From positions 62,001 through 126,000 of the forward strand of contig JAFQLQ010000002.1 of NCBI GenBank assembly GCA_017414505.1: a stretch of 64,000 nucleotides of DNA, given 5' to 3'. The notes beneath the pieces were generated by a model, which ran no database searches, had not been told where the DNA came from, and saw nothing but the letters and a program-made list of their open reading frames with translations. Origin of the DNA: Clostridia bacterium. GTDB taxonomy: Bacteria; Bacillota; Clostridia; UMGS1840; HGM11507. Shown piece after piece: positions 29,439 to 35,298 of the stretch. Position 1 is the stretch's first letter. The number at the start of each line of letters is the position of its first letter. A program made the position numbers and the translations under genes.

Positions 29439-30356
29439 TCAGAACGGTTCAACACAGGATATAATATCACTGATGTTATTTAGTTTGTTGTCCTCAACGT
29501 ATTTTTCAAGTCCATCTACAATTTTAACAGCTGAATAAGGATCTGCAAAATTTGCACTTCCCACAGAAACAAGAGTTGCTCCAGCCATCATAAATTCAAC
29601 AGCATCCTCCCATGTGGAAATACCGCCCATACCCATAATAGGAATATTTACAGCATTTGCAACCTGCCATACCATTCTTACTGCAACCGGTTTTACGCAG
29701 GGGCCGGAAAGTCCGCCAACGTTATTTTTCAAACGCGGACGTTTGGTTTTTATATCAATGCTCATTCCAAGTAATGTATTTATAAGTGACAAACCGTCTG
29801 CTCCGCCGGCTTCTGCCGCTCTTGCAATTTCAGCAATATCGGTTACATTGGGAGTTAATTTAACAACAAGAGGAATTTGGCAGTATTTTTTTACCTGTGA
29901 TGTTATTTCGTTAACAACCTTTGCATCTGTACCAAAGCTTGCTCCGCCTTTTTTTACATTCGGACAGGATATATTCATTTCAATAATATCAGAACCGCTT
30001 TCGGAAATTATTTCTGCCATTTTACAGTAATCCTCTACTGTATTTCCCGAAATATTAACGATAATTTTAGAACCGAACTTTTTAACATCAGGTAAAATAT
30101 CCTTACAAAAAGCTTCTACGCCGGGATTTTGCAATCCAACACTGTTAAGCATACCGCTTGGGGTTTCGTAAACTCTCGGAGGAGGGTTTCCGGTTCTTGG
30201 CTTTAAGGTAAGACCTTTCATTCCAAGTCCGCCAAGTCTGCCAACATCATAAAACATATTATATTCATGACCGAATCCGTAAGTACCGGAAGATGTAACT
30301 ACCGGATTTTTAAATTCCACTCCGCAAAAATTTACTTTTAATTTATCATTAATCAT
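29439..30356 (-). CDS. pyrD: Dihydroorotate dehydrogenase, class 1B catalytic subunit
   Basis: 305 residues from the ATG at 30356; the frame is open for a further 59 codons upstream, but that part lies antisense-free inside pyrK and is not part of the family. Oxidises dihydroorotate to orotate with FMN. SSGTYGFGHEY, the catalytic cysteine in NISCPNVKKGG, and the C-terminal GMGGISTWEDAVEF FMN-phosphate region are present. The Cys base marks class 1B, which needs PyrK for electron transfer to NAD. Overlaps the pyrK end by eight bases. Confidence 0.95.
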   Translation of the reverse strand: MINDKLKVNFCGVEFKNPVVTSSGTYGFGHEYNMFYDVGRLGGLGMKGLTLKPRTGNPPPRVYETPSGMLNSVGLQNPGVEAFCKDILPDVKKFGSKIIVNISGNTVEDYCKMAEIISESGSDIIEMNISCPNVKKGGASFGTDAKVVNEITSQVKKYCQIPLVVKLTPNVTDIAEIARAAEAGGADGLSLINTLLGMSIDIKTKRPRLKNNVGGLSGPCVKPVAVRMVWQVANAVNIPIMGMGGISTWEDAVEFMMAGATLVSVGSANFADPYSAVKIVDGLEKYVEDNKLNNISDIISCVEPF

Positions 30357-31127
30357 TGAATAACACCTCTTTTGCATTAAATACAGGGCCGTGCTTACAA
30401 ACATGGGCAAAGTTATATCCTTCTTCCATTTCCTTATCGGAAACTTTTGTAGCACAGCACAGGCAAGCTCCGATTCCGCAAGCCATACGTTCTTCAAGAG
30501 AAACTTCAAGATAAATTCCGTTATTGGCAGCAATTGGCTTTAAAGCTTTTAACATTGGCATCGGACCGCAGGCAAAAATTGCATCAATATCTTCAGTAAG
30601 CAAAAGTTCTGCAAGAACATCAGTAACTCTGCCGCTTCTTTTGTAGCTGCCGTCATCAGTTGTTATATAAACTCTCTTACTGTACTTGTTAAAGTCTTCT
30701 TCCAAAGTTACAAGGTCTTTGTTTCTGAATCCTAAAATGGCCGTTGCGTTAAGCTGTTTTGCAGTTTCAAGCATTGGATAAACACCTATACCACCACCGA
30801 TAACAACCGGATTTTTATAGTTTTTGTTAACAGAAAATCCATTACCCAACGGGCCAAGTAAATCTATTATATCGCCTTCGTTTTTCTCTGCAAGAAGTTT
30901 AGTACCTTTACCTCTTATTTCAAAAATAAAACGAAGCTTATTATCTGAAATTTCACAAATACTTATAGGTCTGCGAAGAAAGTATCTCCTTCACAGCTTA
31001 TATGAATAAACTGTCCCGCTTTTGCAGTATTAAGCAGATTGTCCGCATCAACAATCATTTCAAATATATTCGGGACAAGTTCTTTTTTTGACAATATTTT
31101 TGTTTTCACAACAACTCTGTCACTCAT
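30349..31127 (-). pseudogene. pyrK: pyrK, dihydroorotate dehydrogenase electron transfer subunit, split by a one-base frameshift
   Basis: The N-terminal part (ATG 31127, AGGTGTG upstream) reads MSDRVVVKTK to GDTFFADL and stops; the rest continues in another frame as LRRPISICEIS, through the NAD-site GGGIGVYPML to the Fe-S cysteines CGIGACLCC and HVCKHGPVF. The two parts join exactly if one T is restored in the TTT run at 30979-30981 (minus strand), giving about 259 residues, the normal length. The break falls in the conserved FAD-binding RRPISI motif. It may be a recent mutation, a sequencing error in a homopolymer, or slippage; all other parts look intact and selected. Confidence 0.88.
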
Positions 31128-31162
31128 AATCACACCTGCTTTTCTTATAATTATTCTACTAT

Positions 31163-31191
31163 ATTCTATCAAATTTTTATTGTGTTGTCAA
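31163..31191 (-). promoter_or_regulatory. Promoter of the pyrK-pyrD cluster
   Basis: TTGACA (31186-31191) and TAGAAT (31163-31168) on the minus strand with 17-base spacer, 36 bases upstream of pyrK. No PyrR-type attenuator is seen after it. Confidence 0.75.
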
Positions 31192-32471: not shown

Positions 32472-33926
32472 ATGGATTTTTATATTAAATTAACAGGACA
32501 CGATAAAATTTATCCTCTGGAAAATATAGTAAAAAGCGTTTTCAGAAATGCCGAATTATATTTTTCTGAAGAAAAGGATAATAAAATTATCAGCGAATTA
32601 ACCGATAATAAGGTATTAACCACTATTATTCTTGACGGAAAGACTTACTACGGTGAATGTAGTTTTGACAGCGGTCATCCCCTGCTTAAAAAAATAGAAT
32701 CGGTACTTAAACTTTCGTTTATAAATGCAGCAGAGCAAATAACCAAAATTAATCTGCCCTGGGGTATTCTCACCGGGATTCGTCCTTCTAAAATGGTTTG
32801 CGATTTAAGGAAAGAAAATTATTCCGATGAATATATAAGAAAAATTTTCAAGGAAGATTTAAAAGTTTCCGAAAGTAAAACTGAGCTTATGTTCCAGGCT
32901 GCAGAATACGAAGAAGCGACTGCAAAAAACACTAAATCTACAGATATTTCGGTCTATATAGGTATTCCGTTTTGTCCATCACGCTGTGCCTATTGCAGTT
33001 TTATTTCCAAAACATACAAAAACGATTCTATCATCAACGATTATCTTGATGCCTTGATAAAAGAAATTGAAACAGTGTCTGAAATACTAAAAAATAAAGC
33101 ATTGAACGTTAAAACAATTTATGTCGGCGGAGGCACTCCAACCACTCTCAATGCTGTTCAGCTTGAAAAAATGCTTTTCCACATTAATTCCAAGCTTGAC
33201 TTATCACACCTTGAAGAATTTACAGTAGAATGCGGAAGACCTGACACAATTACAGAAGAAAAGCTTTCCGTTCTTAGTAAATACAAGGTTGACCGAATCA
33301 GCATTAACCCTCAAACACTTAACAATGACACTTTAAAAGCTATAGGTCGCTCACATAGCGTGGAAGACTTCTTTACAGCTTACAATTCAGCAAAAAAATT
33401 CGGTTTTAAAGCTATAAACACCGATCTTATTGCAGGTTTACCCGGTGAATCACTGGAAGATTTCAAATTTACACTTGATAAAATTACAGAACTCTCTCCC
33501 GAAAACATCACAGTTCACACTCTATCGGTTAAACGTGCCGCAAAAATGATTGACAGTAAATTTGACATTATAACAGAAAAAACAGAAGCGGATAAAATGC
33601 TCGATTATGCTAACACTAAACTAAAAGACAATAACTACGAGCCCTATTACTTATACCGTCAGAAGAACACGCTCAACAACCTTGAAAATACAGGCTATAC
33701 AAAAAAAGGTTCGGCCTGTGCTTACAACATAATTATAATGCAGGAAATAGGTTCCATAATTTCTTTAGGCGGCGGAGGTGTAAACAAAATTATATTTCCA
33801 AAAACCAATGAAATTAAACGGCTGAGGAACCCAAAAGACGGAGACGAATATATTAAAAATATAGAAAATATTATTAAGAAAAAATATGATTTTTTTGAAC
33901 AGGCAGGTGAAATTTTTGACAATTGA
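32472..33926 (+). CDS. hemZ: Oxygen-independent coproporphyrinogen dehydrogenase HemZ
   Basis: 484 residues. Radical SAM protein with the C-x3-C-x2-C motif in FCPSRCAYCSF (about 166-176) after an N-terminal domain of about 160 residues that distinguishes HemZ from HemN/HemW. GGGTPTTLNA and the glutamate-containing VECGRPDTIT are further HemN-family motifs. Assigned to heme synthesis by family name; no other heme pathway gene is in the window, so the actual role here is uncertain. Confidence 0.92.
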   Translation: MDFYIKLTGHDKIYPLENIVKSVFRNAELYFSEEKDNKIISELTDNKVLTTIILDGKTYYGECSFDSGHPLLKKIESVLKLSFINAAEQITKINLPWGILTGIRPSKMVCDLRKENYSDEYIRKIFKEDLKVSESKTELMFQAAEYEEATAKNTKSTDISVYIGIPFCPSRCAYCSFISKTYKNDSIINDYLDALIKEIETVSEILKNKALNVKTIYVGGGTPTTLNAVQLEKMLFHINSKLDLSHLEEFTVECGRPDTITEEKLSVLSKYKVDRISINPQTLNNDTLKAIGRSHSVEDFFTAYNSAKKFGFKAINTDLIAGLPGESLEDFKFTLDKITELSPENITVHTLSVKRAAKMIDSKFDIITEKTEADKMLDYANTKLKDNNYEPYYLYRQKNTLNNLENTGYTKKGSACAYNIIIMQEIGSIISLGGGGVNKIIFPKTNEIKRLRNPKDGDEYIKNIENIIKKKYDFFEQAGEIFDN

Positions 33927-35235
33927 AACCATCAACAAAAGAGCTGTTAATTCTCCTGAAAAATTCATAGCAGACTGTGAAGCAAAATTCTATGAAAAAA
34001 TAAAAAAAGTTGCAGAGCGCATACTTGAAGAAAATATTAAATTTGTTTTTGTTTCAGGTCCTACTTCATCAGGAAAAACTACATTTTCAAAAATGCTTTC
34101 CAATATGCTTGATAAAGTTCATCCAACTGTTATTTCGCTTGATAATTTTTACAAAACAATGGATGAAATGCCAAAGAAAAACGATGGAGAAATGAATTTT
34201 GAATCCATAAATTCATTAAAAACAGATGAAATCCACGAAACACTTTCTGCAATACAGGAAAACAGAAATTATTTCGTTCCTGCTCTTAATTTTGAGAACC
34301 GAACTTTCGGAGAAAAAAATGAATACACAACAAAAGAAAATGCAGTATATATAATAGAAGGTCTGCACGCACTCAACTCTAAAATCTGCAATTATTTAAG
34401 CAACGTGAAAGCTCTTAAAATTTACATTTATCCGGAATTCGAACCAATAAGCAAATACGATATACGTTTTATAAGAAGAATGGTCAGAGATAATTTTTTC
34501 CGGAATTCAGACGTATTCAACAGTCTGGAAATGTGGAACACCGTTCGTGACGGTGAGAAAATCTACAGTTCAAAATACGAAAAAAATTCAGATATAACCA
34601 TCAACACCTTTCTGCCTTATGAAATGTGTGTATTTAAACATTTTGCTTTAGAAGAATTAAATAAAGTTGACAATACCAGTAAGCATTACAATAAAGTTGT
34701 CCGCCTAAAAAAGATTTTAACCGGATTTTCGGATATAGACTACAAATTAATTCCCGAAGATTCGTTACTTAACGAATTTATCAAACAAGATTCACCCGAT
34801 GAAGAAAATAACAAAAACACTATTGAAATTTTCGCAAATTATGATATAATAAAAGAAAAAAGGAGTAAAAACATTATGGAATGGTTTGAAAATGTAAAAG
34901 ATACAGTTAAAGAAACTGCCGGCAAAGCAGTTGAAAAATCAAATCAGCTTATTGATATTACAAAACTCAATTTTAAAGTTTCAGATTTAAAAAGCGATAT
35001 TGAAAAAACATACAAGGCAATTGGATTGAAAATTTTCGAAGATTACAAAAGCGGTGAAGCAACTCCTGATGAAATTGCCGAATTATGTAAGCTTATAGAA
35101 GAAAATTACGAAAAAATAGAAGCATTAAAGAGCGAAATTGCCGATATTAAAAATATGAAAAAATGCCCTGAATGCGGAAAATATATTTCTGCTGACTCAA
35201 GTTTCTGCTCAGATTGCGGAGCAAAAGCCGACTAA
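33916..35235 (+). CDS. Uridine kinase-like nucleoside kinase, read through in frame into a zinc-ribbon protein
   Basis: 439 residues from TTG 33916 (AGGTGA five bases upstream; overlaps the hemZ end by 11 bases). Residues 1 to about 290 are a nucleoside kinase of the uridine-kinase/phosphoribulokinase group: P-loop SGPTSSGKTTFSKML, SLDNFYKT, IIEGLHALN, RRMVRDNFFR, and a C-terminal IPEDSLLNEFI that normally ends the protein. Here no stop follows; the frame runs through a spacer of about 27 residues into a second protein (MEWFENVKDT onward). The spacer DNA holds a perfect promoter and ribosome site, so the fusion looks like a lost stop codon. Confidence 0.82.
   Translation: MTIETINKRAVNSPEKFIADCEAKFYEKIKKVAERILEENIKFVFVSGPTSSGKTTFSKMLSNMLDKVHPTVISLDNFYKTMDEMPKKNDGEMNFESINSLKTDEIHETLSAIQENRNYFVPALNFENRTFGEKNEYTTKENAVYIIEGLHALNSKICNYLSNVKALKIYIYPEFEPISKYDIRFIRRMVRDNFFRNSDVFNSLEMWNTVRDGEKIYSSKYEKNSDITINTFLPYEMCVFKHFALEELNKVDNTSKHYNKVVRLKKILTGFSDIDYKLIPEDSLLNEFIKQDSPDEENNKNTIEIFANYDIIKEKRSKNIMEWFENVKDTVKETAGKAVEKSNQLIDITKLNFKVSDLKSDIEKTYKAIGLKIFEDYKSGEATPDEIAELCKLIEENYEKIEALKSEIADIKNMKKCPECGKYISADSSFCSDCGAKAD
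34823..34850 (+). promoter_or_regulatory. Promoter inside the kinase-zinc ribbon reading frame
   Basis: TTGAAA (34823-34828), 16-base spacer, TATAAT (34845-34850), then AAAAAAGGAG (34856-34865) and ATG 34876. All lie within the continuous reading frame and would drive the zinc-ribbon protein on its own. Confidence 0.75.
34876..35235 (+). CDS. Zinc-ribbon coiled-coil protein, probably also made from its own start
   Basis: 119 residues, same frame as the preceding kinase. An amphipathic N-terminal helix (MEWFENVKDTVKETAG), a long helical region (about 30-90) and a C-terminal zinc ribbon CPECGKYISADSSFCSDCG (C-x2-C, C-x2-C). Short proteins of exactly this layout occur as independent genes in Clostridia. 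The AAAGGAG and promoter upstream support independent expression. Function unknown. Confidence 0.75.
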   Translation: MEWFENVKDTVKETAGKAVEKSNQLIDITKLNFKVSDLKSDIEKTYKAIGLKIFEDYKSGEATPDEIAELCKLIEENYEKIEALKSEIADIKNMKKCPECGKYISADSSFCSDCGAKAD

Positions 35236-35238
35236 CAT

Positions 35239-35272
35239 TAAGAGGGCTGCAAAAATTGCAGTTCTCTTTTTC
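35239..35272 (+). terminator. Terminator after the zinc-ribbon gene
   Basis: AAGAGGGCTGCAA and TTGCAGTTCTCTT arms with a 3-base loop, followed by TTTTTC, four bases after the stop codon. Confidence 0.85.
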
Positions 35273-35298
35273 ATTTTTTCAGAAAGGGGTTGACGCCA

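Follow-up and report, generated by a model that had tools for sequence, protein, structure and literature searches.

In the 64,000-nucleotide stretch of Clostridia bacterium DNA analysed here (the window), a kinase gene and the gene for a small zinc-ribbon protein share one frame (33916–35235, plus strand), which starts with TTG and is open throughout for 439 codons. It appears somewhat better than evenly likely that hemZ, kinase, and zinc-ribbon genes form a conserved set, that this lineage recently lost the stop codon dividing kinase from zinc ribbon, and that the cell continues to make the free zinc-ribbon protein, probably as its working form. The sequences themselves establish that the frame is open, that relatives have the two genes apart, that the start of the zinc-ribbon protein is conserved, and that signals for its expression are present at the sequence level. 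We infer that the loss is recent, that the promoter embedded in the frame is used, and that both products exist.

The cluster begins with hemZ (32472–33926, plus strand), a radical SAM gene of the coproporphyrinogen dehydrogenase family (TIGR03994, 506.7 bits against a cut-off of 321.4), whose 3′ end overlaps the start of the kinase. This start is most plausibly the TTG at 33916, where MTIETIN aligns with MSIETIN of the kinase in the sister genus (G001); a Shine-Dalgarno-like AGGTG lies upstream at 33905–33909 on the plus strand. The kinase part (33916–34785, plus strand; residues 1–290) extends from the TTG to ...SLLNEFIK, lacks an N-terminal extension, and belongs to the PRK/uridine-kinase type. 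PF00485 matches residues 46–229 (E 3e-13, 50.3 bits against a curated cut-off of 22), the P-loop GxxxxGK[ST] is present as GPTSSGKTTF, and the closest folds are the uridine kinases 3asz and 6n55. Identity to the kinases of G001 and of a further relative, G002, amounts to 42–43%. Since its score of 76.2 bits lies below the cut-off of the Udk equivalog TIGR00235 (220.3 bits), the kinase was not filed as Udk, and "nucleoside kinase" is best taken as an annotation-level name only. No uridine kinase activity was seen for a related three-domain protein of T. maritima (PMC10248530). With the PRK kinases of Clostridia and Thermotoga, some of which carry a TGS/ThrRS-like part at the N-terminus, the window kinase shares the kinase domain with its motifs and an (R/N)EF ending at the C-terminus; it differs from them in being a short form with a missing stop codon, and its function is predicted from sequence.

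The second part of the frame (34876–35235, plus strand; residues 321–439) starts with MEWFE and encodes a helical protein of 119 residues with a C-terminal zinc ribbon (PF13240/PF13248). PF13240 is found at residues 416–437, scoring 28.8 bits in the free protein against a cut-off of 25, and two CxxC pairs (CPEC/CSDC) are present. The initial annotation had described a kinase–zinc-ribbon frame uninterrupted by a stop, and translation to 439 residues bears this out; the motifs are intact in both halves (GPTSSGKTTF in the kinase, CPECGK..CSDCG in the zinc ribbon). In an AlphaFold model of the 439-residue product, the two modules reach pLDDT values above 90 and the linker (residues 291–320) has values of 48–58. 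Because the model combines two confident modules with a low-confidence linker, each half of the product may function as it did before. One peptide of the predicted product that spans the junction is, for example, NTIEIFANYDIIK.

The genome of the window is a draft assembly of 53 contigs, 88% complete, and is the only one to represent its genus among the genomes compared. The sister genus G001 displays the same order, hemZ–kinase–zinc ribbon; there, the kinase terminates with LNEFLKLDVM, and the ATG of the zinc-ribbon gene lies behind a gap of 411 nucleotides. A fusion in G001, at first suspected from an open frame of 561, was rejected when direct translation gave stops. In the 411-nucleotide gap itself (L033, 6790–7200), short stretches recur (AACCTCACGAACCTCTAAGGCATT / AACCTCACAAACCTCTAGAACATT), and there is a promoter-like TTGTGGTATAAT. 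In G002 the kinase ends with LLNEFIKK* and no zinc-ribbon gene is found behind it; in G003 the zinc-ribbon gene directly follows a metallo-hydrolase gene, hemZ and the kinase being missing from that place. Examination of 125 kinase frames from Clostridia revealed a zinc-ribbon gene no more than 1.2 kb downstream in 17 relatives' loci, with a stop codon in between in all 17, and the free zinc-ribbon orthologues begin at the same methionine as that encoded at 34876 (M(D/E/A)WF or a similar start, preceded by a Shine-Dalgarno sequence). The proposal that the zinc-ribbon protein is normally encoded on its own is thereby confirmed. Both domains in one frame were seen in the window alone among the 125 frames, and not in a second genome. 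Relatives with the same fusion and a conserved spacer, which the initial annotation had named as speaking against its reading, did not turn up in these 125 frames, and the linker was carried by no relative. Consistently, no further unbroken match through both halves was present among the approximately 150 matches listed from 291 genomes of the class. A contig scan with the fusion as query found no relative, and the hits of one with hemZ as query were confined to the sister genus and to Clostridia further removed. As the relatives examined keep both genes separated by a stop codon, the fusion seems peculiar to the genome of the window; and as the genes are separate in every relative checked, it most likely originated in a mutation of recent date or in an error of the sequence.

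Kinase relatives mostly end 2–19 residues past the (R/N)EF motif, with few exceptions. The frame of the window continues for 32 residues past the kinase motif to the zinc-ribbon methionine, the two parts being separated by 90 nucleotides (34786–34875) without an in-frame stop. To score codon usage in this spacer, a coding model built on 299 genes was set against a non-coding model of the same genome. Codons 1–20 of the spacer (QDSPDEENNKNTIEIFANYD; 34786–34845, plus strand) look coding: compared with real stop-free non-coding windows, codons 1–10 rank within the top 2% and codons 11–20 within the top 8%. Compared with real coding windows, codons 21–30 (IIKEKRSKNI; 34846–34875, plus strand) reach the 0.7th percentile; they resemble the non-coding leader of the zinc-ribbon gene. 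The signal is modest, an equal score being reached by 22% of non-coding windows when all 30 codons are pooled. The best position for the change from coding to non-coding lies after 34845, and three-frame translation places a TAATAA in the +1 frame (34847–34852, plus strand) precisely at the end of the coding signal. Given this coincidence, a substitution in the stop codon would explain the open junction, as would a one-base insertion or deletion, whether genuine or introduced in the consensus. Codons 1–20 are probably the species' own kinase tail, and an ancestral kinase that ended some 20 residues beyond its relatives, with a stop codon overlapping the –10 box of the following gene, would fit the pattern. 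Openness as such is unremarkable and only the missing stop stands out, since 15% of 30-codon stretches are open in simulated non-coding DNA of the same composition and 12 of 87 same-strand neighbour pairs (gap of at least 20 nucleotides, 395 kb of the genome) are in frame and open past the upstream stop. An origin of the spacer from a repeat was considered and rejected, the best candidate for a second genomic copy matching an unconvincing 74% over 68 bases.

The zinc-ribbon gene is equipped with a set of expression signals of its own, several of which lie within the open frame. A promoter-like TTGAAA-16-TATAAT occupies 34823–34850 on the plus strand (TTGAAA at 34823–34828, TATAAT at 34845–34850), with an extended –10 TG at 34842–34843. 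It agrees with the consensus at 11 of 12 positions and ranks among the three best sites between 30 and 39 kb. Two exact occurrences of TTGAAA-N15-18-TATAAT were found in the window where 0.41 would be expected, so that the match is suggestive rather than exceptional. The sequence AAAAAAGGAG at 34856–34865 includes AAGGAG (34860–34865, plus strand), the putative Shine-Dalgarno sequence for the ATG at 34876; GGAG or GGAGG is found at the same place in the orthologues. Behind the gene, a 13-pair stem (35240–35268) followed by a T tail forms a predicted intrinsic terminator (35240–35278, plus strand). Hence the motifs that the initial annotation had placed inside the frame (TTGAAA-16-TATAAT, AAGGAG, and ATG) are correctly located, and its view that the zinc-ribbon gene carries signals for independent expression agrees with the sequence. 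Because promoter-like site, Shine-Dalgarno sequence, start, and terminator are all retained, the free 119-residue protein is probably still made, and it would probably arise both from its own transcript and by internal initiation on the longer one. The further suggestion that a promoter within coding sequence is unusual did not hold: in E. coli (PMC10469882) and M. smegmatis (PMC6448022) alike, promoters of this kind, placed in an upstream coding sequence and serving the gene behind it, are common, and 1,233 internal transcription start sites of E. coli may belong to annotated genes, in many cases the downstream gene (PMC10469882). An internal promoter in the window would thus be ordinary. It would resemble these start sites at the 3′ end of upstream genes in serving the next gene from within the upstream frame; in contrast to them, the downstream gene lies in the same frame without a stop, and the products would share their C-terminal part.

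In the favoured explanation, the stop codon would have been lost by a substitution or a one-base insertion or deletion beside the –10 box of the zinc-ribbon gene. Ribosomes starting at 33916 would then read through the former leader and produce a two-module protein of 439 residues with a floppy linker, and the promoter at 34823–34850, the Shine-Dalgarno sequence, the ATG at 34876, and the terminator would continue to provide the free protein of 119 residues. C-terminal additions are known to arise through stop substitutions and, more often, through frameshifts, as documented in a survey of yeast (PMC4494051), the single apparent gene fusion of which is termed discredited in the same work. The window resembles such extensions in that two same-strand neighbours share one frame, with former leader DNA as the added stretch; it differs in that the case is known from the sequence of one draft genome alone. 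Since stop loss and internal promoters are both known (PMC4494051; PMC10469882, PMC6448022), neither would be new in kind. The observation is real and its explanation, as proposed, ordinary; the missing stop may be genuine or an error of the sequence.

An error of sequencing or assembly is possible, if well short of probable. According to this explanation the true genome has a stop codon, for instance because the kinase frame reaches the TAATAA at 34847–34852, and no fusion exists. The end of the coding signal after 34845, right at that +1-frame TAATAA, is as expected from such an error, and a precedent exists 3 kb from the junction: pyrK (30349–31172, minus strand) is split by a one-base shift near 30968–30978 into pieces that match successive parts of one family, positions 15–55 and approximately 96–257 of models for the dihydroorotate dehydrogenase electron transfer subunit. 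Whether a real defect or an error of the consensus, the break in pyrK shows that insertions/deletions or errors are present in the sequence; it thereby counts against stop loss, increases the prior probability of a junction error, and makes the latter a live option. (A weaker pyrK homologue resides on contig C52.) A frame-path scan also called more shifts in the genome of the window (28 in 395 kb) than in G001 (11 in 398 kb), but on inspection most calls were ordinary gene overlaps and pyrK was the only clear mid-gene shift among those inspected, so that the true rate of mid-gene shifts appears low. Moreover, the junction lacks a long homopolymer, and the scan called no shift there.

The translated appearance of spacer codons 1–20 would fit an older fusion as well. 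It is unlikely that a real fusion has become fixed in the genus, with the free zinc-ribbon protein supplied by the embedded promoter, Shine-Dalgarno sequence, and start, as a first step of fusion in which the second gene is still autonomous. Marginally more doubtful is an established and selected fusion, in which the cell uses both the 439-residue kinase–zinc-ribbon protein and the 119-residue protein obtained through the internal promoter and start. The open frame with the motifs of both halves intact, the coding-like first part of the spacer, and a conserved neighbourhood suggestive of a functional link are compatible with such selection. However, the fusion is absent from relatives, both in the 125 kinase frames and among the matches listed from the 291 genomes, the last 10 spacer codons do not look coding, the linker is predicted to be unstructured, and the complete transcription unit of the zinc-ribbon gene argues that it is the free form that matters. 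Programmed readthrough of a normally in-frame kinase stop, by which the family would make both forms, is very improbable. Of the 17 adjacent pairs, 8 share one frame, 4 of these 8 without a further stop in the gap, but 8 of 17 is close to the one third expected by chance; the stops vary (TAA, TAG, TGA), and the gaps, 17 to 411 nucleotides long, have no common context. A same-frame rule for such pairs, at first indicated by 7 of 7 in frame, stemmed from a biased filter and was discarded in view of the near-chance proportion among unfiltered pairs.

If the loss of the stop codon is real, the junction would be a snapshot of operon neighbours fusing, the second gene having all of its own signals and the first lacking its stop. 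It would also hint at a connection between two clostridial proteins, both poorly understood, whose genes are neighbours in many genomes. If an error is to blame, the case is a reminder that open junctions in draft genomes deserve checking. The kinase and zinc-ribbon genes recur as neighbours in distant Clostridia, often behind hemZ (17 loci, e.g., L004, L052, L063, L074, L112, L197, and L204). Two kinase architectures occur in Clostridia, as judged from L005–L019, L098, L063, and L074: a short one of approximately 300 residues, the type encoded in the window, and one of approximately 550 residues that is extended at the N-terminus, presumably by the TGS/ThrRS-like part.
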